NCBI GenBank assembly: GCA_025350325.1
Contig: JANXYB010000002.1
Location: 1 to 58,127 of the forward strand
DNA length: 58,127 bases
Direction of reading: 5' to 3'
Source: Acidobacteriaceae bacterium
GTDB taxonomy: Bacteria; Acidobacteriota; Terriglobia; Terriglobales; Acidobacteriaceae
Shown here: in pieces, positions 30,097 to 53,128 of the stretch
Numbering within the stretch: position 1 is the stretch's first letter
How the letters are laid out: every line of letters begins with the position of its first letter
Made by a program: the position numbers and the translations under genes
The notes under the pieces: model-generated
The model's input: the letters and a program-made list of their open reading frames with translations, nothing else
What the model was told of the DNA's origin: nothing
Databases searched by the model: none

Positions 30097-30112
30097 TGTG
30101 ACATCAGTCACG
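30097..30112. promoter_or_regulatory. CRP-type operator upstream of phosphoketolase
   Basis: TGTGACATCAGTCACG matches the E. coli CRP half-sites TGTGA-N6-TCACA at 9 of 10 positions. It ends 61 bases before the phosphoketolase ATG. It shares the extended core TGTGAC-N4-GTCAC with the site at 53113. The Crp/Fnr protein at 50456-51169 is the natural candidate to bind it. Confidence 0.65.
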
Positions 30113-30173
30113 CAAGACGGTAACCATCACCTGCTAGGCTGAAAATTCCCGCAATTTCCATCCGAGGTTCACT

Positions 30174-32579
30174 ATGAGCGACGTAACGGCGATCGAATCG
30201 ACAAAAACAGTGGATGCACCTACTGGGCCGCTTAGCACCGAAGAACTTGAGAAAATGAACGCTTACTGGCGTGCAGCCAATTACCTCTCCGTCGGACAGA
30301 TTTATCTCAAGGACAATCCTCTGCTTGAGCGCCCGCTTACCATCGACGACGTCAAACCGCGCCTGCTCGGCCATTGGGGTACGACGCCCGGCCTCAATTT
30401 TCTCTATGTGCACTGGAATCGAATCATTCGCACACGCAATATCGACATGCTTTACATCATTGGCCCCGGCCACGGCGGTCCGGGTCTGGTGGCGAACACC
30501 TATCTCGAAGGTTCCTATAGCGAGATGTACCCGCACATCGAGCAGAATAAGGACGGCATCAAACGCCTCTTCCGCCAATTCAGTTGGCCTTATGGAATTC
30601 CCAGCCACGTCGCGCCGGAAACTCCGGGCTCAATCCACGAAGGCGGCGAGCTGGGCTACTCGCTGGTGCACGCGTACGGCGCTGCATTCGACAACCCCAA
30701 TCTGATAGTGGCTTGCGTAGTCGGCGATGGCGAAGCTGAAACAGGTCCTCTCGCCACCAGTTGGCACTCCAACAAATTTCTAAACCCCGCGACTGATGGC
30801 GCAGTGCTTCCTATTCTTCATTTAAATGGCTACAAGATCGCCAACCCTACAGTGCTCGCGCGCATCCCGCATGCGGAACTGGAGGACTTGATGCGCGGCT
30901 ACGGCTACGAGCCCTTCACGCTCGAGGGCGATAATCCCGCCACCATGCATCAGCAGGCGGCCGCGATATTCGAGACTATTTTCGATCGCATCGCAGCCAT
31001 CCAAAAAGCAGCGCGCGAGGAAGGCTCGACCCAGCGACCCGCCTGGCCAATGCTCATCATGCGCACGCCCAAGGGTTGGACTGGACCTAAATTTGTCGAT
31101 GGCAAGCCGGTTGAAAATACCTGGCGCGCCCACCAGGTACCGTTCGCTGAACTGCGCGAAAAGCCGGAACACCTGCGCCTGCTCGAAGAGTGGATGCGCA
31201 GCTACAAACCCGAAGAGCTATTCGATGAGAAAGGTGGATTCCGCGCCGAACTCGCTGCGATTGCACCTAAAGGCCGGCGACGCATGGGTATGAATGCGCA
31301 TGCCAACGGCGGCCTGTTACTACAGCCGCTCAAAATACCGAACTTCCGTGATTTTGCGGTGAAGATTGAAGGGCGCGGTCAAGTGCAGGCTGAGTCGGCT
31401 CGATTCCTAGGCCAGTTGCTGCACGCGGTGATGGAAGCCAACAAGGCAGAGAAAAATTTCCGCGTGTTCGGTCCAGATGAGACTGCCAGCAATCGACTCG
31501 GGGATGTGATTACGGGAACCGGCAAGACCTGGATGGAATCCACGCTCCCGATCGACGAAAACCTCTCGCAGACCGGCCGCGTGATGGAGATTTTGAGCGA
31601 GCACATGTGCCAGGGCTGGCTTGAGGGTTACCTGCTCACTGGCCGTCATGGCTTTTTTAGTTGCTACGAGGCGTTCATTCACATCATCGATTCCATGGTC
31701 AATCAGCACGCCAAGTGGCTCAAGGTTACGCGACAGATTCCATGGCGCAAGCCTATCGCATCGCTTAACTATCTCCTGAGTTCACTGGTATGGCGGCAGG
31801 ATCACAATGGATTTTCGCATCAGGACCCCGGCTTCATCGACCACTTGCTCAACAAGAAAGCCGATGTGGTGCGCATCTATCTTCCGCCCGACGCCAACAC
31901 ACTCTTGTCGGTCAGCGACCACTGCCTGCGCAGCAAGAACTACATCAACCTCATCGTTGCCGGCAAGCAGCCCGCGCCGCAATGGCTGACAATCGACGAG
32001 GCGGTCGCTCACTGCACTACCGGCCTTGGCGTGTGGACGTGGGCGTCGAACGACGACGGCAATCCAGATGTGGTGATGGCCTGCTGTGGCGACGTGCCCA
32101 CGATGGAAACGCTGGCCGCCGTAAACCTGCTGCATGAGCAGGCTCCTGACCTGCGCATTCGCGTCGTCAACGTTGTCGACCTCATGGCCCTGCAGCCGCA
32201 ATCTGAACATCCGCACGGTCTGCCGGACGAGGACTTCGATAGCATTTTCCCGGTCGGCGTACCCGTGATCTTCGCGTTCCACGGATATCCATGGTGCATT
32301 CACCGCCTCACGTATAGGCGTCATAACCACGACAACATTCATGTGCGCGGGTACAAGGAAGAGGGCACAACAACTACGCCCTTTGACATGTGCGTACTCA
32401 ATAACATTGACCGTTTCCAACTGACGCTCGACGCGATTACCCGCGTGCCGCGATTGGCTGCGCAAGTCGATGGCACCCAGCAGTGGTACTCAGAAGCGAT
32501 CCAGCGCCACCACATTTATGTTGCCGAAAACGGCGACGATCTTCCTGAAATCCGCGATTGGCGCTGGACGCAGAACTAA
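30174..32579 (+). CDS. xfp: Phosphoketolase
   Basis: This 801-residue thiamine-diphosphate enzyme cleaves xylulose-5-phosphate or fructose-6-phosphate with inorganic phosphate into acetyl phosphate and glyceraldehyde-3-phosphate or erythrose-4-phosphate. The N-terminal signature [18 protein letters not shown], the TPP-binding stretch near residue 184 ([19 protein letters not shown]) and the family motif [10 protein letters not shown] are intact, and length fits the family. The ATG is preceded by GAGGTT. Acetate kinase follows 76 bases later, giving a complete acetyl-phosphate to acetate plus ATP route. A CRP-type operator lies just upstream, so expression may respond to the Crp/Fnr regulator of this window. 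Confidence 0.96.
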
Positions 32580-32655
32580 CTGGCCTCACTCGCTGACTTA
32601 TCAACTAGTACACATTAACTTGCAGTCTTTATGAAACTCAGGAGCTTTTGTACTC

Positions 32656-33852
32656 ATGTCTTCTTTGCCTATTTTGGTTTTGAACAGCGGCTCTTCTTCC
32701 ATCAAATTTTCTGTGTATGAAGCGGCCGATGGACAGCGCCTCAAGCTTCACGAGGGCGCGGTGGACGGCATCGGCACCGATCTTGGAACATTCTGGATCA
32801 AGGATGCAGCAGGCAAAAAGCTTGTCGATCAAACTCCTGCTCTGCCCACGCGTGCCGTGGCTTTTGCACTTGTAGCAGACGCTTTGCACTCGGGGGACTT
32901 CCCTGCACCTGTCGCCATTGGCCATCGTATGGTCTCTGGCGGCCCGACCGTGCAAGACAACCAGCGCATCACGCCCGAGTTGATAGACGAAATGGAGAAA
33001 TATACAGCCTTTGCGCCGCTGCACACCCCCATCGCTGTCTACATCATGCGTGAGGCACTGCGTCTTTTTCCCAGCATTCCAAACTTCGTTATTCTCGACA
33101 CCTATTTTCATCGCACCATGCCTGAAGTGGCCCGGCACATGCCAATCCCCTCTGAATATGCCGAGATGGGAGTGCGGCGTTATGGGGCCCACGGTATTTC
33201 TTATGAATCGATCGTTTACCAGTTGCAGCCAGACGTCCCTCAGAAGCTGATCGTCGCGCATCTTGGTAATGGCGCTTCCATTTCCGCCATCCGCAATAGC
33301 GAGTGTCTTGATACATCGATGGGTCTCACGCCCACGGGCGGCATCATCAGCGGTACCCGCACCGGCGACATCGATCCCGGGGTTCTGCTTTTCATCCTGC
33401 GCAAAATTGCCGAGACGACACCGAACTCGACAGAAGCAGCCGATAAGCTTGAAACTGTGGCCAGCAAGAAGGCTGGACTACTTGGCGTCAGCGAACTCTC
33501 AAACGACATGCGCGATCTGCGCGACGCAATCAAGACGGGCAACGCCAAGGCTCGGCTGGCTGTCGACAAATTCACTTGGACCATCGCCAAGTGGATCGGA
33601 AGTTTTGTAGCCGAATTGAATGGTCTCGACATGCTGGTATTCACCGGCGGCATCGGCGAGAATGATATGGACTCGCGCGCGGAAATCTGCGCAGGGCTGG
33701 GCGCGCTCGGCATCGTACTCGACGCGACGCGCAATAACGTTCGCGGCAAGGCTGTCATCTCTGCGGAAAACTCCCAGGTCAAAGTGCGCGTGATTCCGCC
33801 CGCCGAAGACCTGATTATTGTGAATCATGTTGTGCGTTTGTTGAGCAAATAA
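32656..33852 (+). CDS. ackA: Acetate kinase
   Basis: This 398-residue enzyme of the ASKHA fold moves phosphate between acetyl phosphate and ADP, forming acetate and ATP. The N-terminal phosphate loop (VLNSGSSSIKFSVY), the DTYFHRTMP segment with the conserved catalytic-type Asp, HLGNGAS, the family TPTGGIISGTRTGDIDPG stretch and FTGGIGEN are all present and in order. AGGAG precedes the ATG. Placement directly behind phosphoketolase shows its role in energy recovery from acetyl phosphate. No phosphotransacetylase gene is nearby. Confidence 0.96.
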   Translation: MSSLPILVLNSGSSSIKFSVYEAADGQRLKLHEGAVDGIGTDLGTFWIKDAAGKKLVDQTPALPTRAVAFALVADALHSGDFPAPVAIGHRMVSGGPTVQDNQRITPELIDEMEKYTAFAPLHTPIAVYIMREALRLFPSIPNFVILDTYFHRTMPEVARHMPIPSEYAEMGVRRYGAHGISYESIVYQLQPDVPQKLIVAHLGNGASISAIRNSECLDTSMGLTPTGGIISGTRTGDIDPGVLLFILRKIAETTPNSTEAADKLETVASKKAGLLGVSELSNDMRDLRDAIKTGNAKARLAVDKFTWTIAKWIGSFVAELNGLDMLVFTGGIGENDMDSRAEICAGLGALGIVLDATRNNVRGKAVISAENSQVKVRVIPPAEDLIIVNHVVRLLSK

Positions 33853-33944
33853 CTTGGCCAATATAGGAAAATAGCCTCGCGCTTGCAACCGCGCGCCTGA
33901 GCCGCATGCTTTACACTGAATAGTTCGCAATGGAGTTTTGATTC

Positions 33945-34910
33945 ATGCATGCCGCGACCACTCAAGTTGATTTGCAACGCTTGCCCTCCCCTGCTTTGCG
34001 CCGCTTTGCCTGGGCCATCCTTGTCTACTTCATCGCGGTAATTTTGTGGGGCACGCTGGTGCGCGCTACGGGCGCGGGCGCCGGATGCGGCAACCACTGG
34101 CCCCTGTGCAACGGCACAGTCTTGCAGCACTCTGCCAACGCCAACACGATGATCGAGTTCACCCACCGCATCACCAGCGGCATTTCATTCTTCTCGGCCG
34201 TTGGCTTGCTGGTGTGGACGTTTGCCGGAACTGTGCGCGGGCACCTGGCGCGCGCAGCCGCCGCAGCCACGGTCGGTTTCACGCTGATCGAGGCCATTCT
34301 AGGCGCCTTGCTCGTCAAGCTTGGCCTCACCGCTCAAAGCCAATCGCCGTTGCGCGCACCATATCTCGCGCTGCATCTGACCAACACATTGCTGCTGCTG
34401 GCCGCACTCACGCTCACCGCACATCTTCTGAGCCGCAAGCATGGATATCTGGGAAGCACGATTCGCCTCGTTACACCCCTGGGAGCATTGGTCAGCGTAG
34501 TCGTTGTTCTAATTGTAGGCGTGACCGGCTCCCTCGCCGCACTCGGCGACACGCTCTTTCCTGCGACCTCGCTCGGTTCAGCGCTTCAAGAGGATTTCTC
34601 GGCGACAAGCGGGTGGCTGGTGCGCTGGCGCTGGACGCATCCGACCATTGCATTCTTCGCCAGCATCATTCTCATCTGGCTTCTGGTGCGTGCCGCACGA
34701 CGTACAGCAATTTGGGACAATCGAAACCTCTCAGCCCTGATCCTGCTGCTGCTCGCGGCACAGTATGTGCTCGGCGTTCTCGATGTCGTGCTGCTCGCGC
34801 CGCTATGGCTTCAAGTTGCGCATCTGCTCGGCGCCGATGTGTTGTGGGCCGCCCTGGTCGTGCTGACCGCGCGCCTGACCCTGCAGCCGACAGACGTTCT
34901 TGAGCCCTAG
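33945..34910 (+). CDS. ctaA: Heme A synthase, COX15/CtaA family
   Basis: This 321-residue inner-membrane protein oxidises heme O to heme A for aa3-type terminal oxidases. Eight hydrophobic helices alternate with the family's haem-ligating histidines (EFTHRITSG and RWTHPTIAF). An extracytoplasmic Cys pair (AGCGNHWPLCN) follows the first helix, as in the CtaA types that need a disulfide. GGAG precedes the ATG. It lies 92 bases after ackA in the same direction, so it could be read from the same transcript. No oxidase structural genes are in the window. Confidence 0.9.
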   Translation: MHAATTQVDLQRLPSPALRRFAWAILVYFIAVILWGTLVRATGAGAGCGNHWPLCNGTVLQHSANANTMIEFTHRITSGISFFSAVGLLVWTFAGTVRGHLARAAAAATVGFTLIEAILGALLVKLGLTAQSQSPLRAPYLALHLTNTLLLLAALTLTAHLLSRKHGYLGSTIRLVTPLGALVSVVVVLIVGVTGSLAALGDTLFPATSLGSALQEDFSATSGWLVRWRWTHPTIAFFASIILIWLLVRAARRTAIWDNRNLSALILLLLAAQYVLGVLDVVLLAPLWLQVAHLLGADVLWAALVVLTARLTLQPTDVLEP

Positions 34911-34924
34911 TCAAGGTCCCTCCT

Positions 34925-36082
34925 TTAGCTTTTCACCAGTACATCTGCCGCTGGATACGTTTTACCACCGACTACGGCGTTGATTACGGGAAGCTCGGGC
35001 GTAGCGGTAAGCCACTCGATTACGCCATCCCGCAGCAGCACGGTATCCTCTGCCTTGCCTCCGCGAATGCTGGGGTTCCAAGCGAACGCTTGGTTGTTCA
35101 CGACCACCTCCGTGCCGTTAGGCGTGGCCAACCATTCGCGTTCACCATAGCCGGTGGCACCGCCTTGGTGGTGAAACCGTTCTTCGCCTGGAAACCCTTC
35201 GGCCGCATACGCCTCCTTTGCTGCACGAAACAGTTCCGCTGAAGTAGCGCCCGTCCGAGTTGCATCGAGAAGGGTCGCATTGACTTGCGCAGCTGATTTG
35301 AAGCGCCCTGCAAGCTCTGTCGGCACCTCGCCGAAATGGACAAAGCGAGTGATTGAAATTGCGAGTCCCCATTTGCGCGAACAAAGATTTAACATGCCGT
35401 ACTGCTTCAGCCTTGCGCCGCGCGCGACTGCGTGTTTGTATTTCATGATGCGCTCGTCCACCGCGAAAAGATAAACCGATGGCAAAATTCCGCGGCGCAA
35501 CAGGTTAGCTGCAGTGATCGCTTCAAGGTCGTACTCGCTCAACCCGGGCTCAACCTCATGCAGCGACTCCACCGTCGCAGCAGCGGTTTGCTCGCCCAGC
35601 CAGCGATAACGTGCAATCTCGCTTTCACTCAGCGCCGCCCGCAGCGGATAAAGATTCTTGACTTTGAAATCTGCAACCGGCGTGTCCGATCCCATTGCAC
35701 CGCCAGCCAGCCTCGAAGCCATTGCCGCAGTCTCATCGGCATGCCACGGAAACAATACTGGCTCAAAATCCAACAATCGGAATTCCTCATCATGTAGTCG
35801 TGGCGCCTCGTTCTCCGTAGTAAGGTAGTAGCGCTTGCCCGATGCAGTCACCAGCAGCGACGCCACTCCTGTCTCCCCAGGAGTCAGCACGCGCAACTCC
35901 ACCGCTCCGCCTGTCAGCCAGGCTACATTCTCATTGCGGCGAATCAGTATACCGGCCAGTTTGTCTGCATGAAGCCATTCCACCAGTTTCTGATGCTTGG
36001 TTTCCAACTCCGCATTCCATGCGGCCTCTGTCACCAGTGTGGCCCCACCCACTATCAGGCTTTTGCCTATTCTCCTGCTCAT
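34925..36082 (-). CDS. M24 (aminopeptidase P-fold) protein lacking canonical metal ligands
   Basis: This 385-residue protein has the creatinase/prolidase N-terminal domain (residues about 25-135) and the pita-bread C-terminal domain. The usual five metal ligands (Asp, Asp, His, Glu, Glu) are mostly replaced. The DfG region reads LNLCSRKWG (231-239), the second Asp position reads AISITRF (241-247), and the first Glu region reads WNPSIRG (345-351). HHQGGATGYGERE (304-316) and the last Glu (355) remain. It is therefore unlikely to be an ordinary Xaa-Pro peptidase and may bind another substrate or be a pseudo-enzyme. GAAGGAA precedes the ATG. It lies last in the symporter-isomerase operon, after a hairpin. 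Confidence 0.82.
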   Translation of the reverse strand: MSRRIGKSLIVGGATLVTEAAWNAELETKHQKLVEWLHADKLAGILIRRNENVAWLTGGAVELRVLTPGETGVASLLVTASGKRYYLTTENEAPRLHDEEFRLLDFEPVLFPWHADETAAMASRLAGGAMGSDTPVADFKVKNLYPLRAALSESEIARYRWLGEQTAAATVESLHEVEPGLSEYDLEAITAANLLRRGILPSVYLFAVDERIMKYKHAVARGARLKQYGMLNLCSRKWGLAISITRFVHFGEVPTELAGRFKSAAQVNATLLDATRTGATSAELFRAAKEAYAAEGFPGEERFHHQGGATGYGEREWLATPNGTEVVVNNQAFAWNPSIRGGKAEDTVLLRDGVIEWLTATPELPVINAVVGGKTYPAADVLVKS

Positions 36083-36118
36083 GATTACGATTCCTTCAGA
36101 TCAAGTAATGCAAAGTAA

Positions 36119-36150
36119 TTCGGGCGTCGACGCATTCGTCAACGCCCGAA
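36119..36150. terminator. Hairpin between isomerase and M24 genes
   Basis: Fourteen-base arms (36119-36132 and 36137-36150) pair around a four-base loop with a single G-T mismatch. It lies 16 bases past the isomerase stop and about 37 bases before the M24 start on the minus strand. No strong T-tract follows, so it may attenuate or stabilise the mRNA rather than terminate fully. Confidence 0.5.
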
Positions 36151-36166
36151 GATGACCCATACGCGC

Positions 36167-37591
36167 CTAGTCCTCGAGCGTAGGGTGATAGTGACTTTCC
36201 CATCCCTGGTAGCGCGCAGCCTCGTGAATGGCCCTTGAGACGTCGCTGAAGTTTGCCGCCACGTGGTGTTCAAATCCCTCGCGGCAGATAAACTTCAACA
36301 GCTTTTGCAGTTGCGGAATCTCCGCTACCCCCGCGCCGCCAAATGTATCGAGCGGATCGTCGGTGAATTTCCCCGCACCGGTATAACCGCGCACCACGCC
36401 GCGCCGGTCGTCGGTGGAGTAGCGCGCATAACTCATCGGGCCAGCCTTCACGCGCCCTACGCAGGTACCAAATGTATTGAGCTTGCCGACGGTCCCAGCG
36501 ATGATTTCCTGGTAGTCCATCTTTACTTCTTTGAAGAAATGCTTGGGCAAATTTGAGCAGTGAAAACAAACACACTTGTCAGGATGAGTGCCGTAGTTGT
36601 TATTCCAGTCGAGCAGCGCTGAGGGCGTGCCGCTGGCGAGGGCCAGCATGTACATGCTCAAGGTTCCGGGCACGTCCACTTCGCATGCCGATGGAATCAG
36701 GTCGTTGCTCATCATGCTCATGACAGTGCACGGCACCACGCCGAAGTATTCTTCCATCGAAGTCCAGCACTGCACGGCACTGATCGTGACGTGGGTCTGT
36801 TTCATCCATGTGTCGATCACTGCGCCCAGCTTCGACATCTTAAGCAAGGCTTCCTCAGGAATACCTACCGTTGTCACATACTTTTTGATCGATGCGAGCT
36901 TCGCCTGCGCGGCATCGTCTGTGTCTTTCATGCGATTGATCCGACCGAAGATCTCCGACAGGTCGATCGTCTCAATGGAGATGCCGGCGGTCTCAAATAT
37001 CCGTTCGGAATAACGGACTGTGTTGAACGCAGTCGGCCGCGCGCCAATCGCGCCGATGCGCAGATTCTTCAAGCCCTTGACGATTCGGCAGACCGCAGAA
37101 AACCATTCCAAATCGGCTTTGAATTCATCGGACTTCAAGCTCTCGGTATGCAGTGTCGTCAGAGAGTAATTAATGCCGTACTGCATCATGTTGTTACATG
37201 CGCTCATCTTGCCGCAAAAGCTGTCGCGGCGCGTGGCAATGGTCATCGCGTCAGCGCGGTCAGGCGTCGCCTGCACGAGCACTGGCACCTTGAGCCCTGA
37301 GAGCCGGATGGCATCGACAATGCCGCGCTCTTCGCCAAAGTTAGGCAGCGTCACGATAATGCCGTCGATCTCTTCCGCATGCTTCTTGAAAAGCTCAGCG
37401 CAGCGCATCGATTCGTCGTAGGTTTCTACTGCGCCATATTTTGACTCTTCTGGGCTCAGCACGATCGCACGTGCGCCCGCTGCCTCAAGCACGGAAATGA
37501 TTTCTTCACGGCCAGTCTTGGCCAAGTGATCGGGAAAAAAGCCGCGATTCCCTACTACTACTCCAAATGTCATCGTTCGTTGTGCAGCCAT
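36167..37591 (-). CDS. L-fucose/L-arabinose isomerase-like protein
   Basis: This 474-residue protein belongs to the L-fucose/L-arabinose isomerase superfamily, metal-dependent aldose-ketose isomerases. An N-terminal Rossmann-like domain (FGVVVGNRGFFPDHL, GIIVTLPNFGEERG) leads to a central domain (CWTSMEEYFGVVPC, ACEVDVPG) with the Glu/Asp/His type residues used by the family for Mn binding, then a C-terminal beta domain (TGAGKFTDDP). It is not a close match to AraA or FucI, so the sugar is unknown; related proteins include isomerases for unusual sugars such as sulfoquinovose. AAGGAG precedes the ATG. It follows the small membrane protein by 33 bases within the symporter operon, which points to use of the imported sugar. 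Confidence 0.82.
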   Translation of the reverse strand: MAAQRTMTFGVVVGNRGFFPDHLAKTGREEIISVLEAAGARAIVLSPEESKYGAVETYDESMRCAELFKKHAEEIDGIIVTLPNFGEERGIVDAIRLSGLKVPVLVQATPDRADAMTIATRRDSFCGKMSACNNMMQYGINYSLTTLHTESLKSDEFKADLEWFSAVCRIVKGLKNLRIGAIGARPTAFNTVRYSERIFETAGISIETIDLSEIFGRINRMKDTDDAAQAKLASIKKYVTTVGIPEEALLKMSKLGAVIDTWMKQTHVTISAVQCWTSMEEYFGVVPCTVMSMMSNDLIPSACEVDVPGTLSMYMLALASGTPSALLDWNNNYGTHPDKCVCFHCSNLPKHFFKEVKMDYQEIIAGTVGKLNTFGTCVGRVKAGPMSYARYSTDDRRGVVRGYTGAGKFTDDPLDTFGGAGVAEIPQLQKLLKFICREGFEHHVAANFSDVSRAIHEAARYQGWESHYHPTLED

Positions 37592-37624
37592 TGATTCATG
37601 CTCCTTGTAACTGCGTGCAAAAAC

Positions 37625-37840
37625 TTAATCGTTGCGTCCCGGGCGGAATCGCAAGCCGTAAAAAAGGCCGAGTGCCAGCATAATTGCGCCCCACCAGACG
37701 GGGGCATGCAGGTTGGCCAGGATCACATTGGCGGTATGCCCCGTAATCAGTTCGAACAAGCCATAGCCAAAAATCATCGCACCATAAATAGTGAGAAGAA
37801 CACCAATGAAAAACCAGATAGAAATGCTCGAGGAATGCAT
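37625..37840 (-). CDS. Two-TM small membrane protein between symporter and isomerase
   Basis: This 71-residue protein has two hydrophobic helices (residues about 8-30 and 44-63) joined by a short loop and a basic end (RFRPGRND). A strong GGGAGGT site precedes the ATG, and it starts 12 bases after the symporter stop, so it is co-translated with it. I know no function. Its place suggests a small accessory subunit of the symporter, as DUF485/DUF4212-type proteins accompany other SSS transporters, but it does not show their motifs. An alternative ATG lies four bases upstream in another frame and is not supported. Confidence 0.75.
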   Translation of the reverse strand: MHSSSISIWFFIGVLLTIYGAMIFGYGLFELITGHTANVILANLHAPVWWGAIMLALGLFYGLRFRPGRND

Positions 37841-37852
37841 GCATGACCTCCC

Positions 37853-39646: not shown

Positions 39647-39895
39647 CGAGTCACCTTGAATTGGGGTTGATACATCCGCAAGTTGTATGGACGTTCGCCC
39701 TAAGTAAATGGGTTTACTGCACAAGTTGTCAAGCGTCTTGGGTGAAAAAGCTGTAGGCTGTACATCAACCATCAAGCAGCAACCGCGACCAGCGTTTCGC
39801 GCACAGAGAAGCGAAGAATATGTAACCTTTTTCCGCACGGAGTCTAACACAAGCTGCAACGCCCGCAATACGCACGCGTTCCTGCTTTACGCTGG

Positions 39896-41119: not shown

Positions 41120-41248
41120 GCGGCCTCCTTTCATTGCTGCGCCCGCTGTCCGCGATTCGGGCTGAAAGAAGGTGTAAATGGAGATCTACCTTGAGGTGGG
41201 CTTTGAGCCCTTTCCGCGGACCGGATGCGCCCCTGACGCTTGCTGGAA

Positions 41249-42718: not shown

Positions 42719-42742
42719 CGTACATACCCATCGCAAACAGCG

Positions 42743-42771
42743 AAAGCCTCGACAGACCGTCGAGGCTTTTT
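42743..42771 (+). terminator. Rho-independent terminator of the aminotransferase gene
   Basis: An eight-base perfect stem (GCCTCGAC/GTCGAGGC) with a five-base loop is followed by a run of five T on the plus strand, 25 bases after the stop codon. Confidence 0.9.
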
Positions 42772-42806
42772 GCTGTTGGCTAGCCGAGTTCGCGATGCCC
42801 AAAACA

Positions 42807-42840
42807 AACGACGGCGCCCGCTTGTTCGGACGCCGTCGTT
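42807..42840 (-). terminator. Rho-independent terminator of the TonB receptor gene
   Basis: A ten-base perfect stem (AACGACGGCG/CGCCGTCGTT) with a 14-base loop is followed on the minus strand by TTTGTTTT, 27 bases after the receptor stop codon. Confidence 0.85.
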
Positions 42841-42866
42841 GTCGTGTAGGCCTAGTTGCTTGATGG

Positions 42867-45800: not shown

Positions 45801-46139
45801 CTTCATCGGCTGAGTAAAAATCACGCCGGCTGAGACGGGTACCCCAACCACTTTTTCGCTTCTGAACCCCTGGGCCGTCGCGACGATGTCATACTTGCCC
45901 AGGTTCAACTCAGGGAATGAGTACTCACCGGCTGAGCTCGAAAGCGTACTCAATATCACGTTCGTCGCCACGTTTGTGGCATCGACCTTTGCCCCGGGAA
46001 CGACGGCGCCCGACTGGTCAGTGACGACACCATTGATCCCGCCGCGGAAGGTATGTTGGGACCAGCTCGGAATCGTTAACACCGTAACAAATACGAACGC
46101 AGCGATTGCAAATACACTTCGGGTATTTGGATGAAGCAT
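42867..46139 (-). CDS. TonB-dependent receptor with carboxypeptidase-regulatory-like domain
   Basis: This 1090-residue outer-membrane protein is typical of acidobacterial TonB-dependent transporters, which import large substrates such as glycans or chelates. A signal peptide (residues about 8-27, ending SWSQ) leads to a carboxypeptidase-regulatory-like domain (GVVTDQSGAVVPGAKV...FPELNLGKYDIVATAQGF), then the plug with the P-L-N-G-R-D-F motif at residues 152-158 and IDGVDNND, then the beta-barrel. The last residue is Phe (LALKVTF), as expected for BAM-assembled barrels. GGAGGT precedes the ATG. It stands alone, so the ligand cannot be inferred from neighbours. Confidence 0.93.
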   Translation of the reverse strand: MLHPNTRSVFAIAAFVFVTVLTIPSWSQHTFRGGINGVVTDQSGAVVPGAKVDATNVATNVILSTLSSSAGEYSFPELNLGKYDIVATAQGFRSEKVVGVPVSAGVIFTQPMKLAVASYAETVEVAADAYTLDTTTTTQTTIIDAQSVDNAPLNGRDFTQLTTLTPGFVNSGAGGYGALNGTRANQINWQIDGVDNNDIWHNIPAINQGGVSGIAGIILPIDSVEQFSVQTNASADSGRNPGGTATLGLKGGTNQLHGSAYYFNRNEAFGKKSPFTAVKQKVRDYNAGASVGGPIIKDRLFYFLNYEQQRFVIGVPEQATEPTTAWQAYAASVVTSNGQSVSPISSGLLNLLWPSYALKSPASESSGPVIGNYVSPDPEFGYSYNGVGKIDYTMNSNNSMSAHWFGGQGNQVAPVGSALLPYYEVAPIHVQNYQLTYNHNFSPSLTNQVVAGVNYFNQVFNDDKTGFDVASVGLVDGSPFKDAPELQISGFDSTGRTPPEGRNDITGQISDNLSWVKGKHQTRFGVEFRQVQLNEFYHRKGQGDFKFNGTQGGWDLSKSPLTSSITDPAIIARIQSLSDYLAGDVFTSQITLGNPERLVYVHTFSGFAQDSYQFTPKLNVNLGVRWDFEGPLHDGKKDLSVFRPALGGIVFQGAGVSSVYDPTYTDFSPRVGLSYQATAHTVVRAGAGIYYDTPNINPFLDNRPGNNAPNGLEGNPAGPSPVFSITAAPQPGQLLTWQPGVDIFGSASAPSCNPTNPCGVFSVQKSFQPSNNINYNMQIEQSFGPKVITQLGYVGSEGRHLLSIIDLNQSQPNAIGVDQTSRPYYGAFPQYGNINEIQSIGNSNYNSLQATLRASNYHHVTAQAAYTWSHSFDNVTAYRGALPQDSRNFKGDYGQSDFDNRHTLVGELSYEVPGLEGHKAITGGWQFNSVMAFHTGMPFTVLTDDQTDNTSEGNQRANQVLPNPYAGFKQQKVGANWLNPAAFADPPAGTWGTSRRNGYTAPGFGDVDFSVFKNTKIGERINTQFRVEFYNIYNRTNFAPPLGGGNGAYNPNTATISTMQLYDTIGDFNGAPGIGSGEPFNTQLALKVTF

Positions 46140-46504
46140 AGCGCTTGACCTCCAGTAAAGTGGGTGAGATTTCGATCTCTACGCCCTGTAAATTGCAAAT
46201 AGATCTGCGGAGACGCGGGCGTTTAAGGAACGCGCAAGGGAGCTATCTCTTCTCGGGATAATTACAAGGACTCGGATGGCGGGGTGTGGATTCCATTACC
46301 AACAATAGTTTGAAAGCGAATAAGGAAGCAATAAAGAAACCGATAAAAGTCTGTGGGAACACCATCAATATGGCCTGTTGCTCTTCGATTGCGTAAGCGG
46401 CTTTCTCAGCACCATCAACAATGTGATCTGGCTTACTCGCGGCTGTGCGCGCCGGCACATCCAAGCCCCGATTTTGCTGCCAGTCTCCGAAACGAGGTCG
46501 TAAC
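46140..46504. other. Divergent intergenic region
   Basis: The 365 bases between the TonB receptor and usp genes contain no convincing gene. One minus-strand frame (46243-46506) has a hydrophobic segment but no binding site. A weak CRP-type half-site lies at 46422. Confidence 0.4.
46422..46437. promoter_or_regulatory. Degenerate CRP-type site upstream of the first usp gene
   Basis: TGTGATCTGGCTTACT keeps the left half-site TGTGA exactly but only three of five bases on the right. It ends 67 bases before the usp ATG, close to the spacing of the phosphoketolase site. It may be chance. Confidence 0.25.
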
Positions 46505-47473
46505 ATGCCGGATTGGGACTTGGAAAAATGGATTCATCCGGCGGTGATACTGGTCGCAACTGACCTCAGCGATCTTGATAGGCTGATGCCGTTTGCCCTG
46601 CAGCAAGCGCATGAGACTGGGGCTCGCCTTGTCTTACTAAATGTGCTGAGCGCGGGCACCGGTATTGCCCTCGATGCTGCCGGAATTTTTGATTCATCTT
46701 CGGCCGTCGAATATGCGACGAGCACCCTGAAGCCGTGGTGCGATCTTGCTCGCGCACAAGACTTGACCTGCACTGCCGCGGTTCGCGAGGGAAATGCGGC
46801 TCATCAGATTCTTGCGTCGCTCGTCACCCTGCAGGCAGATCGCCTTATCCTAGGAACTCGGAGCCGGAGCAAAATGAGCAAATTGCTCTTGGGCTCCGTG
46901 GCAGAACAAGTGCTGCGCTCGGCAAATCTCCCGGTCATCACCGTGGGGCCCGAGGCTTATCTTACGGAGTTGTGCAGCGGCCAGATCAGGGTGGTGTTGC
47001 ACGCCGCCGAACTTAAAGAGACCTCCTCCTCGAGTGCAGCACTTGCCTGCCAAATCGCCGCCAGTCAGAGAGCCAAGCTGGTTCTGCTTCACGTACGGCC
47101 GCCCATCGATGCACGGCAACCGCAAGGCCAGTCAATTGACTATGACTCAACCGCGAAAGAGGACTTGCGGGTGCTGGCTGCGAAGAGCCTTTTAATTGCT
47201 GAGGCGGGTGCGACCCACGCTGCAAGCTGCGTGCCAGTTGAAACAGAGATCGTTCATGGGCACCCTTCCATCGAAATCCTGGCTGCCTCGGTGGAGCAAC
47301 ATGCCAGCCTTATCGTGCTCGGCAACACGCTAAGGCCTGCGCTGCAAACACTCACTCGCGATCGCACCATCTATCGGGTGGTGGCCCACGCGCGCTGCCC
47401 AGTTCTTACGTTGCGTGATCCACTCGCTACGCCCACCCCGCATGAAGAAGAGCAATTAGCCCGCCACATTTGA
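46505..47473 (+). CDS. Tandem-domain universal stress protein
   Basis: This 322-residue protein consists of two UspA-like alpha/beta domains (starting ILVATDLSDLDRLMPFALQQA and IRVVLHAAELKETSSSSAALA). The first ends in LILGTRSRSKMSKLLLGSVAEQVLRSANLPVITVGP, with the G-x2-G-x9-G-S/T type ATP-binding motif partly kept. In the second this region is degenerate (IVLGNTLRPALQ). ATG 46505 follows GAGGT at seven bases; the frame continues 20 codons upstream. Universal stress proteins aid survival under hypoxia, starvation or damage. A second tandem-domain usp is encoded at 52080, and a weak CRP-type site precedes this gene. Confidence 0.85.
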   Translation: MPDWDLEKWIHPAVILVATDLSDLDRLMPFALQQAHETGARLVLLNVLSAGTGIALDAAGIFDSSSAVEYATSTLKPWCDLARAQDLTCTAAVREGNAAHQILASLVTLQADRLILGTRSRSKMSKLLLGSVAEQVLRSANLPVITVGPEAYLTELCSGQIRVVLHAAELKETSSSSAALACQIAASQRAKLVLLHVRPPIDARQPQGQSIDYDSTAKEDLRVLAAKSLLIAEAGATHAASCVPVETEIVHGHPSIEILAASVEQHASLIVLGNTLRPALQTLTRDRTIYRVVAHARCPVLTLRDPLATPTPHEEEQLARHI

Positions 47474-47553
47474 TCGCTACGCCCACCGTCGATATGCTGC
47501 GACCGACTTCGCGCGAAAGACCAGCAAGCATTCACGCGCGAACTAAGCGCGGT

Positions 47554-50176
47554 TCACTCCTCGCGCAGCAGGATTAAAGGATCGACCGACAAAGCGCGCT
47601 GGGCTGGAATCCACGTAGCCACAACACCTAAGAGCGCCATCGCCACAACTACGCCAGCTAGCACCAGCGGATCACGCGGTGTCGCTTGATACACAATGAA
47701 AGCCAGCACCCTCGTGGCCAATAATCCGAAGAACAATCCTGCAGCGGAACCATAGGCCAGCAACCTTAATGGCCGCCCCAATGCTGCCTGTAACACCTCT
47801 TTCCGTTGCGCACCGAGGGCGATACGAATTCCTAACTCGCGCAATCGCTTGCTGACGGAGTAGGCCGCCATTCCAAAAATACCGGTGATCGCCAGCATTG
47901 CGCCCATCACGCCCATCACGCCCAGCGCCATGGTCGCCATTCGCGAAGGAAAGAGAACCACCTCGAGCAAACTGCTCCAGCTTTGAATGTCAACCGGCAG
48001 TGCCGCATCCACCGTGCGAACTGTATTTCGCATGGCCGCGGAAAGTTGTTGCGGATCGCGGTGGGAGCGGATTATCAGGTAGGCTGAGGCCATCGGCGAT
48101 CTAAGAAATGAGAGGAACATCGCCGGCTGCTGGTTTTCAGTTAGGCTCATATACTTTCCGTCTTCAACTACGCCCACAACCTGGACAAGCGTTCCGTCCT
48201 GCTGCTTCAAATTCTTGCCCATTGCATTGGAGACCGAGCCAAAAATCTTATTGGCAAACGCACGGTTGATTACGACGACGGCAGGCGCGTTTTTGTCGTC
48301 ATGCCATGAGAAACTCCTGCCCGCCAGCAACGTTGTGCCCGCCGCAGCAAAGTATCCCGGCGATACGCCGTACGAGTAAGGCATGATAGCGGCGTTTGCC
48401 GGTTTCATATCGGTGGTTTCTTCCTTGAATACATTTTTTCTTTCGCTGGCTGTATATACCAACTGAGGGTAACCATTCACCAATCCCACTGACTCTACGC
48501 CAGGAATGGTTTGCATTGCGTCGATGATGCGCCGTTGCATGGCGGGCACTTTATCGATGCTGTAACCGGCCATGACCAGATTGACCCCTGCCGTCATCGC
48601 GTTGCGCGGCTCGAAACCGAAGTTACTATGCAACGAATTTACCAGTCCGCGCACGGCCACCATTGAAGACGTGACCAGGACAGCACAGATAGCTATCTGC
48701 ACTACGAGGAGCACGTCGCGCACGGTCAACCGCATTCCGGTCCGGCCGCTCGATCCCGCCTTGACGATCTCATATGGATTGGCCCTGAGCACCTGGCGTA
48801 CGGGAACGATGCCAAAAAGGAATCCGCTCACCAAGGCCAGAATCAAAGCAACCACGTAGAGTTTGGCATCCGGCGCAACAGGCAGGTGGATGGGGGCGCT
48901 AGGAATAACCTGCCATGTGCTCAAGCGGCGCAACAGCATTGAGCTGCCCAGCAGTCCCAGAGCGCCGCCCGTGAGGGAGAGGAGCACGGCTTCAGTCAAT
49001 AACTGACGCAGGATGCGTTTGCGGCTCGAACCAAGCGCAAGGCGCAGAGCCATTTCCCGAGAACGGTCGGCGGCGCGCGCGGCAAACAAGCTGCCCAGGT
49101 TGGCGCAGGCGGCCAGCAGAATCAAGCCGGCTAATAGCGTTAGTCCTGCAACGAAATCGCGCACTGCGGGGCCAAAAGAAGTGAGGCCCTCGCGTGAAAG
49201 GACAGTGCTCCTGTGGCCAACCACTTTTGGATAGGTTTTTTCAAGGTACGCGCTCACACCGTCTACATCGGCCATGGCCTGGGCGGGAGTCACTCCCGGT
49301 TTGAGATGTCCAAACGACTCAAAGACCCCGCGTTCGGTGCCGCGCGTGTTCACGCTCGGGGCGCCCATCTGTTCTTCATTGACGATGGGCATGAAGAAAT
49401 CGGTAGAGATGAACAACAACGTCCCCTGAAACCCCGGCGGCGCTACACCGAGGATGGTGAAAGGATGTTGGTCGAGCCGGACGACACGGCCGACCACCCC
49501 TCGATCGTCCTGGAAGCGGCTGTGCCAATATGCGTATGTGAGCACGATATAGGGTGCGCTGTTGGGGCCGTGCTCATCCGATGCCTGGTAGAAGCGACCG
49601 AGATATGGATGAAGTTGCAGTACGTCGAAGTAGTTCCCCGTGGTGGCAAAGCCGTTTGCGACAGTTGGATTTCGGCCCGTATCCAGGCCCACACCTAAAA
49701 CCATGCCAAAAGCTGCCAGATCTTCGAAGCTGTGGTTACGATCGCGCAAATCGAGATAGTTGGGATACGATTGCCACGCAGGATTGTCTTCCATACACGC
49801 TTTTGTAACGAGGAATATTGAGCGGGCGCAGCAGCAGACCGTCCATCAATCCGAACACTACGGCGTTTGCGCCAATGGCCAATGCCAGCGTCGAAACGGC
49901 AGCGATTGTAAAGCCGGGCGAGCGGCGCATCTGGCGAAGAGCGAATCGCACGTCGGCCCAGATCGATTCCAGCGTGGGCCACTGCCACACTTCACGGCTG
50001 CATCCCTCGAGCAGTGTTCGGTTCCCGAAGGCTCGACGGGCTTGCTGTCCGGCCTCTTTTGGGCTCATGCCTTGGCCCATCAACTGCTCGGCGCGCTCCT
50101 CAATATGCAATTGAATTTCTTCTGAGAGATCTTCATAGAGTTTGCGGCGACGGAAGACTTGCGGTATCCAGTTCAT
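47554..50176 (-). pseudogene. ADOP-type MacB/FtsX permease, frameshifted
   Basis: Two frames together spell one acidobacterial duplicated orphan permease. The first (from ATG 50176) gives the cytoplasmic ADOP N-terminus (EEIQLHIEERAEQLMGQGMS, ARRAFGN), the DVRFALRQMRRSPGFT linker, the first TM helix and LLLRPLNIP. The second frame (from about 49794 to 47554) continues with DNPAWQSYPNYLDLRDRNHSFEDLAAF, the periplasmic core domain, three FtsX helices, a second core domain and the last helices ending ALSVDPLILLREE. The switch near 49790-49800 needs a one-base (mod 3) change, and the segment between P-L-N-I-P and D-N-P-A-W looks a few residues short. Either a true inactivating mutation or a sequencing error is possible. 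The padR gene just upstream is also damaged, favouring real decay. Confidence 0.85.
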
Positions 50177-50189
50177 GGGCAGCTCCCTC

Positions 50190-50455
50190 CTAGTTGGCTG
50201 GAGATTTGCTTGGATTTAGAACGAGCGTGATGCCTTCAAACATGCGTTCGAAGCTGGAGATCTGCTGCTCAAGATGGCGAAGCCCTGAAGCCGTAATCTG
50301 GTAGGTTCGCACACGTCGGTTAGTTGACGAGACACCCCACTCAGCCTTGACCAGCTTTGCTTTGAGCAGCCGCTGGAGCGCCGGATAGAGCGAACCTTCT
50401 TCCACCTGCGTCCGCGCTTGCAGGGGCAGTTTCGACTCAAATGTGCGTGAAAAGT
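50190..50455 (-). pseudogene. PadR-family regulator, 5'-truncated
   Basis: The frame reads QVEEGSLYPALQRLL then KAEWGVSSTNRRVRTYQITASG, the second half of the PadR winged helix and wing, followed by the C-terminal helix (LRHLEQQISSFERMF). The expected first 35-45 residues (the LDLLIL...GPMHGY helices) are absent from all frames. Upstream the sequence runs straight into the end of the crp/fnr gene at 50456. No ATG, GTG or TTG with a binding site allows a normal start; GTG 50405 would begin mid-domain. PadR repressors normally precede and control ADOP genes, and this one sits 13 bases before the permease. Confidence 0.75.
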
Positions 50456-51169
50456 CTAGGCGGTGAGGCGTTCGAGTTGGTCAGGCATAACAATGGTCAT
50501 GCTTGACCCTTTGATCGTGATCCAGTGGTCGCGGCGAAACTGATTAAGCAGCCGGGTGACTGTCTCGCGCGAAGTGCCCGCCATGTTGGCGATTTCTTCA
50601 TGGGTGAGAGCCATGGTGAACCGGATTTCTGGCTTGCCATTGGCGGATGAGCGACCCCAGTCTAGTAGCAAACGAGCCAGCCGACCGGCCGCCGATCCAG
50701 AGAGCGCCAAGCGCTTGGCGTCGTGAAAAACCGTGAGGTACTCGCCTGAAAGCGATTGCGCCGCATGCATACTGGCAATTCCATGACGGCCTAGGAAGTC
50801 GATAAATTCCTGCTTCCGCACCGTCTTCACCTGGCATGGCTCGATAGCTTCCGCTGTGACCTCATGGGGAACGTTGGCAAGCACGGCGCTGAGTCCCATC
50901 ACATCGCCGGGGGCGGCGATCTTTAAAATCATGGTCTTGCCATCGCGGGATGTTGACGAAATCTTTACTTGGCCGAAACAGATAATGAAGACATTGCGTG
51001 CCGCATCCCCTTCAATAAACAGCTTGGCGCCGCGAGCATGGCTCATCATGATGCCGATGCTGTCGTAGTCCCCGAGCGCTTCAGGTGTGAGATTGCAAAA
51101 CATCCGCAGATGGCGATGCTCACAATTAAGACAATCTTCCGGTGGGTGATGGGAATGCAGTCCAGCCAT
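50456..51169 (-). CDS. Crp/Fnr-family regulator with FNR-like cysteines and CRP-like recognition helix
   Basis: This 237-residue transcription factor has an N-terminal Cys group (C13-x2-C16-x8-C25), a cyclic-nucleotide-binding-fold domain (residues about 30-145) with a further Cys at 112, and a C-terminal winged helix (about 170-235). In E. coli FNR three N-terminal cysteines plus C122 hold an oxygen-sensitive [4Fe-4S] cluster, so this arrangement suggests oxygen or NO sensing, though spacing differs. The recognition helix reads S200-R-E-T-V-T-R206, matching CRP residues R180, E181 and R185 that read TGTGA, unlike FNR's V-E-T-I-S-R. Two TGTGA-N6-TCACA-type sites in this window fit that prediction. 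A palindrome 42 bases upstream may be its own operator. Confidence 0.9.
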   Translation of the reverse strand: MAGLHSHHPPEDCLNCEHRHLRMFCNLTPEALGDYDSIGIMMSHARGAKLFIEGDAARNVFIICFGQVKISSTSRDGKTMILKIAAPGDVMGLSAVLANVPHEVTAEAIEPCQVKTVRKQEFIDFLGRHGIASMHAAQSLSGEYLTVFHDAKRLALSGSAAGRLARLLLDWGRSSANGKPEIRFTMALTHEEIANMAGTSRETVTRLLNQFRRDHWITIKGSSMTIVMPDQLERLTA

Positions 51170-51210
51170 AGGTTTTCCGGGTCTACAAACAAGTATAGCG
51201 CGCTTTGACT

Positions 51211-51229
51211 AAACCTTTGGGTAAGGTTT
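51211..51229. promoter_or_regulatory. Inverted repeat upstream of the crp/fnr gene
   Basis: Perfect 7-base arms AAACCTT (51211-51217) and AAGGTTT (51223-51229) flank five bases, 42 bases upstream of the ATG at 51169. The sequence differs from the TGTGA-type sites, so it would serve another regulator or be part of the promoter. Confidence 0.45.
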
Positions 51230-51299
51230 GCGCCCTATTATGTTCGCCCAGTGAATAAACCAAGTCCTGCCAATCGACCAGATGCGAGACCGGCCACTC

Positions 51300-51797
51300 T
51301 CAGCCGGTTGCTGGTAGTATCGCCCGACGCCGCGTTACCGCTGTGCGGGTGACGCAGCAGGTGCCGTAAGCACGCGACACCTCGCGCGCTAACTCTTCTA
51401 GAAGCTTCATCCGAAGTAGCGGGTAGGCCTCAAACGCTCGTTGCAACGCGTCTATCGGCAGGAGCATAACTGCCCCTGCTATCTGAGCAGACAGCGTGTA
51501 GGTGTGGTTTCCATCCCCTAAAGCGGCAGCCATTTCTACCAGATCCCCGGCTCGCGCCATACCCAATGTGACCCGTGTGCTCAATCTTTCCGCTTTGCGT
51601 ATGAATTGCCCGGAAACCACGACGTACAACCCACGACAAGGAGTGGACTGGCGAAAAATTATCTCCCCCGCCTCCACTTGAATGCACTCCGCGGCGGCGT
51701 TGAGGAGATTTCCAACCGCTGCGGGACATGCCAGTAATTCAGCAAGCGGGTGCGCTCCGACGCCATCGGTATGTCTCTCTCTTTCCTCTCTTTGCAA
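51300..51797 (-). CDS. Stand-alone cyclic-nucleotide-binding-fold protein without DNA-binding domain
   Basis: This 165-residue protein is a single Crp-type beta-roll domain: LACPAAVGNLLNAAAECIQVEAGEIIFRQ, then RGLYVVVSGQF and RAGDLVEMAAALGDGNHTYTLSAQIAGAVMLLPIDAL, then the dimerisation helix. The family's cyclic-nucleotide phosphate-binding R-S/T pair is not obvious. It ends after about 25 polar residues with no helix-turn-helix, so it cannot bind DNA as Crp does. I choose TTG 51797 as start because AAAGGAGGT lies ideally upstream; the frame itself opens at 51836. It may be a partner or competitor of the Crp/Fnr protein encoded 130 bases downstream on the same strand. Confidence 0.75.
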   Translation of the reverse strand: MQREERERHTDGVGAHPLAELLACPAAVGNLLNAAAECIQVEAGEIIFRQSTPCRGLYVVVSGQFIRKAERLSTRVTLGMARAGDLVEMAAALGDGNHTYTLSAQIAGAVMLLPIDALQRAFEAYPLLRMKLLEELAREVSRAYGTCCVTRTAVTRRRAILPATG

Positions 51798-52079
51798 GGT
51801 CCCACCTCCTTTAGGCTGCACGCGCCCGCCAACCAAGTGAATCTGTTGCGAAACCCACTGGCTGGCAATCTATCCGCGACAACCTCCGCTACCCGGAATT
51901 GCGATGAACCAAATCGCCCATGGACATCGACCAAACTTGAAACTGCGAGTGAACGTGAGGTGCTGGCGGAATTGCCTGATCCTGTTCACGACATTTGATT
52001 GCTGGACGACAACGTTTTTCCTCGATGGCTTACAGCATTTGCTTGGAGGCATACATCCCCAGCTTGTATATCCCCAACT

Positions 52080-52997
52080 TCAAACTTTGGCCGCGCTGCC
52101 AATTGCAGCCGCCTCCAGGATCGATTCATCCGTGCCCACTTGAACTAACTCGCCGGGTGGCACACACAGGACGGGTACACGGGACCTGGCCAGCAGACTG
52201 AATGCGGTCCCGTGAGGTCCGGGCGTACCACTAGTTCTCTTGACCCCGACAACGAGCACGCTTGGGTGGTATTGATCGATTGCTTCGGTGAGTGCGTCTT
52301 CCGGTTTGCCGTCCTTTACGATGCACCGAATCGGAAATTTGCCGTTGTCGTGAATGCCAAATTGGCCTAGTGTCGTCGCACCCGGGTTCAAAAATGCAGC
52401 CGCCTCGGCAGCACTTCGCGCATGAATCACCAGCAGGGTGCGATGAAAAGTCTCAGCTAGAGAACACGCCGTGGCTGCCGCTGCCGTCGTCGCTTCGTTG
52501 CGCTCCATGGCCAGCATGATGGGGCCACCCGGGGCCGGTCGAAACTCTCCAGCGTTGTAGTCCGCTGCCACGGCCAGAACCGGGCAAGGCGCCAGTCGAA
52601 CCAACTGCTCCGCCACGGCTCCTACTACGACTGGACCAGCCCCTTGCCGGCCTTCCGTTCCGATAACGATGAGTCCTGCTTGATATTGGCGAATCACATC
52701 GACCAGCATCTGCACCACCGCACCTTGGCGAATCACGGAGTGTGTGGGAATGCCCTCCCGCAGAAGTTCAGCGGCCATCTCGTCAAGGACCGCTCTCGCC
52801 TGATCAGGCAGAGTCTTGAGCACCCGACCCGGAAAAGCTGTTGCAGATGCATAATCCAACGGATCAAGTCCGTGCGCCAGCACAATTCGCGAACCATATG
52901 CCGCCGCAATCTTGCGTGCGTATTCGAGGGCGGCTTGTGACTTTCCGACAAGGTCGGTCGCAACCACAATGGTTTTCAAACCCGATTCAAAATTCAT
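52080..52997 (-). CDS. Tandem-domain universal stress protein
   Basis: This 305-residue protein has two UspA-like domains. The first (TIVVATDLVGKSQAALEYARKIA to LIVIGTEGRQGAGPVVVGAVAEQLVRLAPCPVLAV) keeps the G-x2-G-x9-G-S/A type ATP motif. The second ends LVVGVKRTSGTPGPHGTAFSLLARSRVPVLCVP, also near-complete. ATG 52997 follows GGGAGGTAAGG; the frame extends 36 codons upstream without support. It is divergent from the GH3 gene, and a perfect CRP-type palindrome lies 116 bases upstream. The preceding gap to the solitary cyclic-nucleotide-fold gene (51798-52079) holds nothing recognisable. Confidence 0.9.
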   Translation of the reverse strand: MNFESGLKTIVVATDLVGKSQAALEYARKIAAAYGSRIVLAHGLDPLDYASATAFPGRVLKTLPDQARAVLDEMAAELLREGIPTHSVIRQGAVVQMLVDVIRQYQAGLIVIGTEGRQGAGPVVVGAVAEQLVRLAPCPVLAVAADYNAGEFRPAPGGPIMLAMERNEATTAAAATACSLAETFHRTLLVIHARSAAEAAAFLNPGATTLGQFGIHDNGKFPIRCIVKDGKPEDALTEAIDQYHPSVLVVGVKRTSGTPGPHGTAFSLLARSRVPVLCVPPGELVQVGTDESILEAAAIGSAAKV

Positions 52998-53112
52998 CCT
53001 TACCTCCCGCCCACCGCACGCTTGCGGCGCATGCGCGCCTTCGCTGTTACCTATTGGATATTGAGTCTCTTCCAGCCCACATAGCAAAGCAGTGACCGTA
53101 TTCACTCCGCAC

Positions 53113-53128
53113 TGTGACTGCGGTCACA
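53113..53128. promoter_or_regulatory. Perfect CRP-type operator between divergent usp and GH3 genes
   Basis: TGTGACTGCGGTCACA matches TGTGA-N6-TCACA at all ten half-site positions. It sits 116 bases from the usp ATG and 112 bases from the GH3 ATG, almost centred, so it can act on both. It shares the core TGTGAC-N4-GTCAC with the site before phosphoketolase. Confidence 0.75.

Follow-up and report, generated by a model that had tools for sequence, protein, structure and literature searches.

Two palindromes in a 58,127-nt stretch of an Acidobacteriaceae genome (contig JANXYB010000002.1, called the window here; whole genome 4.49 Mb, G000) are best read as operators of a conserved Crp/Fnr-type activator, recognised at low oxygen by P0001, the product of a Crp/Fnr-family gene (fnr) in the same window. 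The probability of this reading, which is built from sequence comparison, is roughly 0.7. Under low oxygen, or in another reducing or energy-poor state, a P0001 dimer would bind TGTGA-N6-TCACA (the box). At the phosphoketolase gene xfp, one dimer, bound some 30 bp before the -10 element in a class II position, would switch on phosphoketolase and probably acetate kinase. At the universal stress protein gene usp and at a second such gene, usp2, two adjacent dimers would bind at a spacing of 22 bp, and the inner dimer would occupy the class II position. Transcription of usp probably continues through the gene for P0002, a Crp-fold protein, and fnr, so that the regulator would feed back on itself. 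The same boxes would serve genes for a H+-pyrophosphatase, a ferredoxin, cytochromes c and cytochrome maturation, with the neighbouring GH3 gene as a bystander.

The palindromes have the positions, letters and mismatch counts reported in an earlier reading of the window (the original prediction). At 53113-53128, TGTGACTGCGGTCACA matches TGTGA-N6-TCACA without mismatch, and at 30097-30112, TGTGACATCAGTCACG matches with one. The form TGTGAC-N4-GTCAC that the two were said to share is borne out by the sequence, and TGTGAC-N4-GTCACR occurs at only two places in the genome, both inside the window. Counted by strand these give 3 matches, because the perfect site counts on both strands, against 2 for the reversed pattern of the same motif, which served as the genome-wide control. 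With at most one mismatch the box is found at 102 places genome-wide versus 46 for the reversed pattern, and sites with at most two mismatches are not enriched inside the window (22 observed, 21.35 expected). Taken alone, the genome and window counts make a weak case. It is conservation before orthologues that places the two sites far above chance.

Orthologues of usp, xfp, GH3 and fnr were taken from 60 relatives, with at most 30 loci for each gene, oriented by that gene. All 1024 palindromes of the form 5-N6-5 were then ranked by the number of loci that carry them upstream. The TGTGA palindrome ranks first of 1024 before usp orthologues, where 30 of 30 loci carry it and the mean over the whole set of palindromes is 0.36; before xfp orthologues it shares first place, at 20 of 25 loci against a mean of 0.23. 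A second set consisted of named contigs, amounting to 976 kb for the counting of box pairs; it overlaps the 60-relative set (for example, G009 and L155 have identical coordinates), so the two sets are not independent. Furthermore, a composite pattern made up of the box, 22-23 bp and NAGNCT has 278 matches in 59 genomes of the genus versus 28 for its reversed control. The operators are almost certainly real and conserved. The expectation that the motif would recur before the orthologues of all three genes holds for xfp and usp and fails for GH3, where the box follows the usp neighbour. There is a very strong case for usp, usp2 and xfp as targets and for leaving GH3 out.

The usp gene (52080..52997, minus strand) encodes a two-domain universal stress protein with PF00582 in two stretches. 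The perfect palindrome upstream of it (TGTGACCGCAGTCACA, 53113..53128, minus strand) is the outer half of a tandem operator, whose second box (AGTGAATACGGTCACT, 53091..53106, minus strand) lies exactly 22 bp closer to usp and had been missed earlier. A -10-like GAGACT (53064..53069, minus strand) follows 21 bp past this proximal box. Of the 57 named usp loci, 56 have a box that matches with one mismatch or none, and 55 have a second box at exactly +22. In the 60-relative set, such a box lies within 400 bp of usp at 30 of 30 loci, and a second box with at most two mismatches stands exactly 22 bp gene-ward at 27 of 30. When box pairs spaced 16-60 bp were counted on the named contigs, all 53 counts fell at exactly 22 bp, where a pair with both boxes at one mismatch or fewer enters twice. 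The box-anchored usp consensus reads TGTGAc-N4-RTCACA, a 22-bp step, RGTGAAtgg-N-GTCACT, 21-22 bp and then a GCA-N-ACT-like element. In the 60-relative set, usp keeps its box where GH3 is distant or on a different contig.

The arrangement at xfp (30174..32579, plus strand; PF09364/PF03894/PF09363 and the NCBIfam phosphoketolase model) has a single box. This box (TGTGACATCAGTCACG, 30097..30112, plus strand) is separated from the xfp ATG at 30174 by 61 bases, the gap originally given for the 9/10 site. A -10-like TAGGCT with TGC directly 5' (30135..30140, plus strand) begins 22 bp past it, and anchored alignment of the orthologues gives TGTGAC...aTCACC...ctgctag.ct, that is, TGTGAC-N4-RTCACC, about 22 bp, TGCTAG-N-CT. 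The single box of the xfp orthologues stands at the same distance from TGCTAGGCT. Same-genus xfp orthologues have a box with at most one mismatch at 20 of 25 loci, a two-mismatch box at 2 of 25 and a decayed box at 3 of 25; in a later batch, 10 of 11 are boxed. More distant phosphoketolases, at 55-70% identity, are mostly without a box (0 of 5 and 1 of 10 boxed in two sets), and the link with the box therefore belongs to the xfp orthologue. The sole boxed member of those ten (L325 in G080, 57% identical) has a perfect TGTGA-N6-TCACA at -66. The acetate kinase gene ackA (32656..33852, plus strand; PF00871, TIGR00016) begins 76 bp past xfp and is probably on the same transcript.

The original prediction also passed over usp2 (46505..47473, plus strand), a second usp gene that is convergent with fnr and has a tandem pair of its own. 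The distal box (TGTGATCTGGCTTACT, 46422..46437, plus strand) has two mismatches in the window; the proximal one (TGTGCGCGCCGGCACA, 46444..46459, plus strand) lies 22 bp away and has the consensus gGTGC.....ggCACA at +22. A -10-like CAGTCT (46481..46486, plus strand; consensus gGtG.CA..cT) comes next. The tandem layout is kept in 28 of 29 loci in relatives, counting an outer box with at most three mismatches and an exact inner GTG..CAC; 23 of 29 have an outer box with one mismatch or none. The overall usp2 consensus is GTGATc...aTCAC, a 22-bp step, GGTGC.....gGCACA, about 21 bp and CA..cT. The protein scores below the cut-offs of the NCBIfam Usp models, and its start region is conserved. The listed GTG start of its open reading frame (ORF; 46445-47473) falls inside the tandem operator, so translation probably begins at the Met at residue 21, position 46505. 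Between usp2 and fnr the window has a gene for an ADOP-family permease with its prefix ORF (47554-50176, minus strand), unlike G031, for example, where usp2 and fnr are about 390 bp apart.

From the end of the box to the -10-like hexamer, the distance is 21-22 bp at xfp, usp and usp2 alike. Such constancy is what a class II activator site would be expected to produce.

The kinds of genes behind other boxes bear on the signal. In the same genome, 20 regions were hand-picked among the matches listed, which are about half of the 102 places; they comprise the 7 perfect sites found elsewhere in the genome than in the window, selected one-mismatch sites and paralogue loci, and illustrate the kind of boxed gene rather than giving an unbiased count. 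In these regions, boxes precede genes for a H+-pyrophosphatase, a 4Fe-4S ferredoxin, two multihaem cytochromes c, CcmF, CcmE, FeoA, an Fe-S biogenesis protein and an ATP synthase b subunit. Genes for an acyl-CoA ligase, a polysaccharide-export protein and a second FNR-like paralogue are boxed as well. In the relatives, recurrent places chosen among the matches listed of the 278 composite matches lie before genes for the H+-pyrophosphatase, ferredoxin, the second FNR-like protein and a HoxE/NuoE-type subunit. Taken together, and with these regions chosen non-randomly, the boxed gene set resembles an oxygen-limitation programme; its respiratory, Fe-S and cytochrome-maturation members fit a low-oxygen or energy-limited programme, in line with the original prediction. 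Some boxes precede genes off this theme (aspartyl-protease/TPR, DsbD-like and DUF1761 proteins), which counts against such a programme. One boxed place (L265) has no clear gene behind it. At the polysaccharide-export (SLBB) gene (L288, contig C22 of the same genome), a perfect TGTGA-N6-TCACA begins 53 bp before the listed start; this gene too is off the respiratory theme.

P0001 is encoded at 50456..51169 on the minus strand and belongs to the Crp/Fnr superfamily, with PF00027 and PF13545 above cut-off. It falls below both the curated Fnr model NF008365 (58 bits, cut-off 228) and the curated CRP model NF008732 (54.9 bits, cut-off 266). Its AlphaFold2 model, with a mean predicted local distance difference test score (pLDDT) of 69, matches GlxR, mycobacterial CRP and A. 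fischeri FNR. Cysteines 13, 16, 25 and 112 and a CRP-type recognition helix (SRETVTR) are present as originally described and are highly conserved in homologues: C13, C16, C25, C112, R201, E202, V204 and R206 are invariant among 21 aligned sequences. The four cysteines point to a cluster, or else to some other redox signal based on thiols. An Fe-S cluster on them is somewhat favoured, and a low-oxygen or redox signal is better supported, being strengthened by the content of the boxed genes.

An orthologue of P0001 is found in 31 of the 33 genus genomes that are at least 94% complete (it is absent from G005 and G084), and full-length matches within the genus are 84-95% identical. One genome (G025) has two copies, on contigs C110 and C161, whose identities to P0001 are 92% and 91%; each contig also carries a usp orthologue. 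Six relatives of the four-cysteine (CCCC) type come from outside the genus. In two of these, L213 (a Chloracidobacterium bin) and L214 (LA_ACB_2), tandem boxes at 22 bp lie downstream of the CCCC/RETVTR regulator gene, followed at the expected distance by TAAAAT or TAAGGT and then by a gene with CxxCH haem motifs, as judged by eye and, in L214, with a further small ORF in between. In L212 and L264 the regulator gene itself is preceded by one box, no more than 100 bp away. A stretch of 8 kb in the genome of L264 (G050) contains the FNR-like gene together with usp genes and a phosphoketolase gene at 52% identity. The tandem boxes beside the CCCC relatives and the G050 cluster speak for the P0001 type as reader of the box, and P0001 or its type is likely, though not proven, to be the main one.

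Several observations weigh against P0001 in this role or against the signal proposed for it. There is no box directly before fnr in 29 of 30 loci (within 250 bp), the TGTGA palindrome ranking 57 there with 1 of 30, and two of the six CCCC relatives outside the genus (L274 and L275) have no box in the stretch covered, against two with tandem and two with single boxes. Regulator and box are also not lost together cleanly. G016 and G017 have no P0001 match and keep a full xfp box, G021 and G084 likewise keep its GTGA..TCAC core, and G020 has P0001 with a decayed xfp box. Only G005, without P0001, has clearly lost one arm; neither it nor G084 has an xfp box at one mismatch or fewer. The completeness of G016, G017 and G021 is 88%, 87% and 92%, respectively, and the G016 contig ends where fnr would follow. 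As for the sensor, the AlphaFold2 model has low confidence where it places the N-terminal cysteines, an orthologue outside the 21-sequence alignment (G012) has V at position 112, and the cysteine spacing of x2, x8 differs from the x2, x5 of Escherichia coli FNR. Finally, RETVTR is present in two paralogues in the same genome, of which one also has Cx2Cx8C; a CRP-like paralogue (L005) has RELVSR.

Because the paralogues share the RETVTR helix, the reader of the box is not unique on this evidence. The helix is common to P0001 (CCCC), a second protein that has the cysteine triad and Ala at position 112, and a third without the triad. The strongest competing explanation is that the second FNR-like paralogue (contig C78; Cx2Cx8C, no central Cys) is the main reader, alone or in a cascade with P0001. 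It combines the same helix with an N-terminal Cys triad, its own promoter is boxed with the -10 layout in several genomes, and the xfp box is full in G016 and G017, and present as a core in G021, where P0001 was not found. On the other side, it is P0001 and not this paralogue that sits with usp and P0002 across the genus, P0001 is kept at high identity, and both relatives outside the genus with nearby tandem boxes are of the CCCC type. This explanation is unlikely on balance, and P0001 remains the preferred reader. The box before the second paralogue (L295) recurs before its orthologues in several genomes and hints at a regulator cascade. The third RETVTR paralogue (L006, L278, L280, L273) has lost the triad and kept the helix; perhaps it is an oxygen-blind competitor.

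The GH3 gene (53240..55813, plus strand; PF00933/PF01915) is the divergent neighbour of usp, and the original prediction drew it into the regulon as a sugar-release arm. Divergent control of GH3 and usp from the shared operator has some evidence in its favour: where GH3 adjoins usp, the outer box is the GH3-proximal one and lies 76-318 bp, often 103-132 bp, before GH3, and the TGTGA palindrome ranks first before GH3 orthologues (13 of 22). That rank arises because those 13 copies share the gap with usp. All 29 loci at which GH3 and the usp start are no more than 450 bp apart have a box at most 350 bp from GH3, versus none of 10 where GH3 is farther away or on a contig without usp; in the 60-relative set, GH3 copies away from usp have no box at one mismatch or fewer. 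Moreover, conservation on the GH3 side past the box is at background (mean 0.13 bits per position, n=29), whereas the usp side keeps the -10-like element. Since the box tracks usp rather than GH3 and no conserved promoter-like sequence is present on the GH3 side, GH3 is judged a bystander and rejected as a regulon member, and the sugar-release arm therefore drops; additional control of GH3 from the usp operator is distinctly improbable.

Control by a cAMP-CRP (catabolite) system, with the boxes responding to carbon supply, is less probable still. The box equals the CRP consensus, the R-E-x-x-x-R helix is the same, a CRP-like paralogue (L005) is present in the genome, and among solved structures P0001 is matched best, in sequence as in fold, by actinobacterial cAMP receptor proteins. 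In the phosphate-binding cassette of CRP, a Glu and an Arg contact cAMP. P0001 lacks both at the aligned positions, its GLSAVL..PHEVTA standing opposite GELSIF..PRTSSA in GlxR, with the same difference from mycobacterial CRP, and it has gained an N-terminal Cys triad. Many boxed genes, moreover, are respiratory, Fe-S or cytochrome-maturation genes. The altered cassette led to rejection of cAMP-CRP as the main reader and agrees with the earlier proposal of a signal other than cAMP.

A role as Rex operators that sense NADH is nearly excluded: the Rex box TTGTGAAW4TTCACAA contains TGTGA-N6-TCACA (PMC2883068), and Rex controls anaerobic genes, with one composite match, in G061, preceding a Rex-like gene, but the outer usp and xfp boxes have C/T..A/G at their inner positions rather than A..T (an inner A is found only in the proximal usp box), and the PF06971 domain was found nowhere in G000 and in only 5 of 40 genus genomes, against 7 of 14 control genomes.

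The preferred reading, with P0001 at the boxes, also draws in P0002 (51300..51836, minus strand), the product of a gene between usp and fnr. It is present at 60 of 68 named loci and has PF00027 only. Its AlphaFold2 model (mean pLDDT 81.5) consists of a beta-roll and one long C-terminal helix with no DNA-binding domain after it, and its Foldseek matches are DNR, CRP and FNR chains, aligned over roughly the first half of each. The longest near-invariant run, LRM.LLEELAREVSRaY, is in the C-terminal helix, the dimerisation helix of the Crp fold, and is followed by an arginine-rich tail. The operator, usp, P0002 and fnr follow one another on one strand; in the window, 243 bp separate usp from P0002 and 130 bp separate P0002 from fnr. 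Of 63 named loci, 55 have usp at a distance of 617-1221 bp from the regulator gene. Given this order, the short gaps and the general lack of a box before fnr, P0001 probably shares an operon with usp and P0002, and a single usp-P0002-fnr transcript would provide the feedback. A dedicated partner that tunes or blocks P0001 by forming headless heterodimers is a tentative role for P0002 and a doubtful one. A literature search found no headless partner for FNR and no description for FNR of a tandem 22-bp operator combined with such a partner; heterodimers of full-length Fnr proteins are reported in Herbaspirillum (PMC5934665, available portion). An ORF beside the regulator gene in L214 was considered as the same partner and rejected, as it does not align to P0002.

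FNR itself binds TTGAT-N4-ATCAA through a reading helix of the ExxSR type. The FNR/FixK/Anr systems of Proteobacteria resemble the present one in the Crp/Fnr fold, the N-terminal cysteines and a regulator gene beside its targets. They differ from it in that the box here is TGTGA-N6-TCACA, the helix is RETVTR, the cysteine spacing is another, the usp operators are tandem at 22 bp and a gene for a partner without a helix-turn-helix domain lies between target and regulator. Bacillus Fnr reads a CRP-like TGTGA palindrome, a site that the literature search did not confirm; with this precedent, the combination of an FNR-type sensor and a CRP-type site seems less unusual than originally rated. The Bacillus protein is an FNR-type [4Fe-4S] sensor with C-terminal ligands and an aspartate (PMC3520743, available portion), whereas the P0001 cysteines, on which a cluster would form, are N-terminal with one central.

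Co-regulation of usp and phosphoketolase was already held to be known from FNR/FixK-type systems, and published work agrees, as far as the available parts of these sources go. Both genes are in predicted alphaproteobacterial FNR/FixK regulons (PMC2908626), phosphoketolase is among putative FixK targets in Rhodopseudomonas (PMC3050613), a Usp is induced by microoxia in Bradyrhizobium (PMC6515984), and usp is among Fnr-activated genes in Herbaspirillum (PMC5934665). For Acidobacteria, no FNR-type regulon is described in the titles and abstract openings among the matches listed. Terracidiphilus genomes from peat are rich in respiratory and bidirectional hydrogenases and have fermentative potential, and regulation of this kind is not treated in the available part of that text (PMC9599518). 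The programme is itself of a known kind; it becomes a variant through the pairing of this box type and this sensor, through tandem operators at 22 bp and through the headless partner. A regulon with CRP-type boxes is real in these genomes, and it is probably FNR-like.

Acidobacteria, which rank among the most common bacteria of soils, experience alternating wet and dry as well as oxic and anoxic conditions. For them, the analysis supplies a testable operator made of two boxes at a 22-bp spacing, a candidate regulator together with its conserved headless partner, and a list of targets that covers acetate fermentation, stress proteins, a proton-pumping pyrophosphatase, ferredoxin, and cytochromes with their maturation. 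If the partner proposal is true, P0002 and the tandem 22-bp operator would amount to a redox switch design. With the operator, targets and candidate regulator, the oxygen-limitation responses of uncultured peat and soil species could become readable from their genomes.

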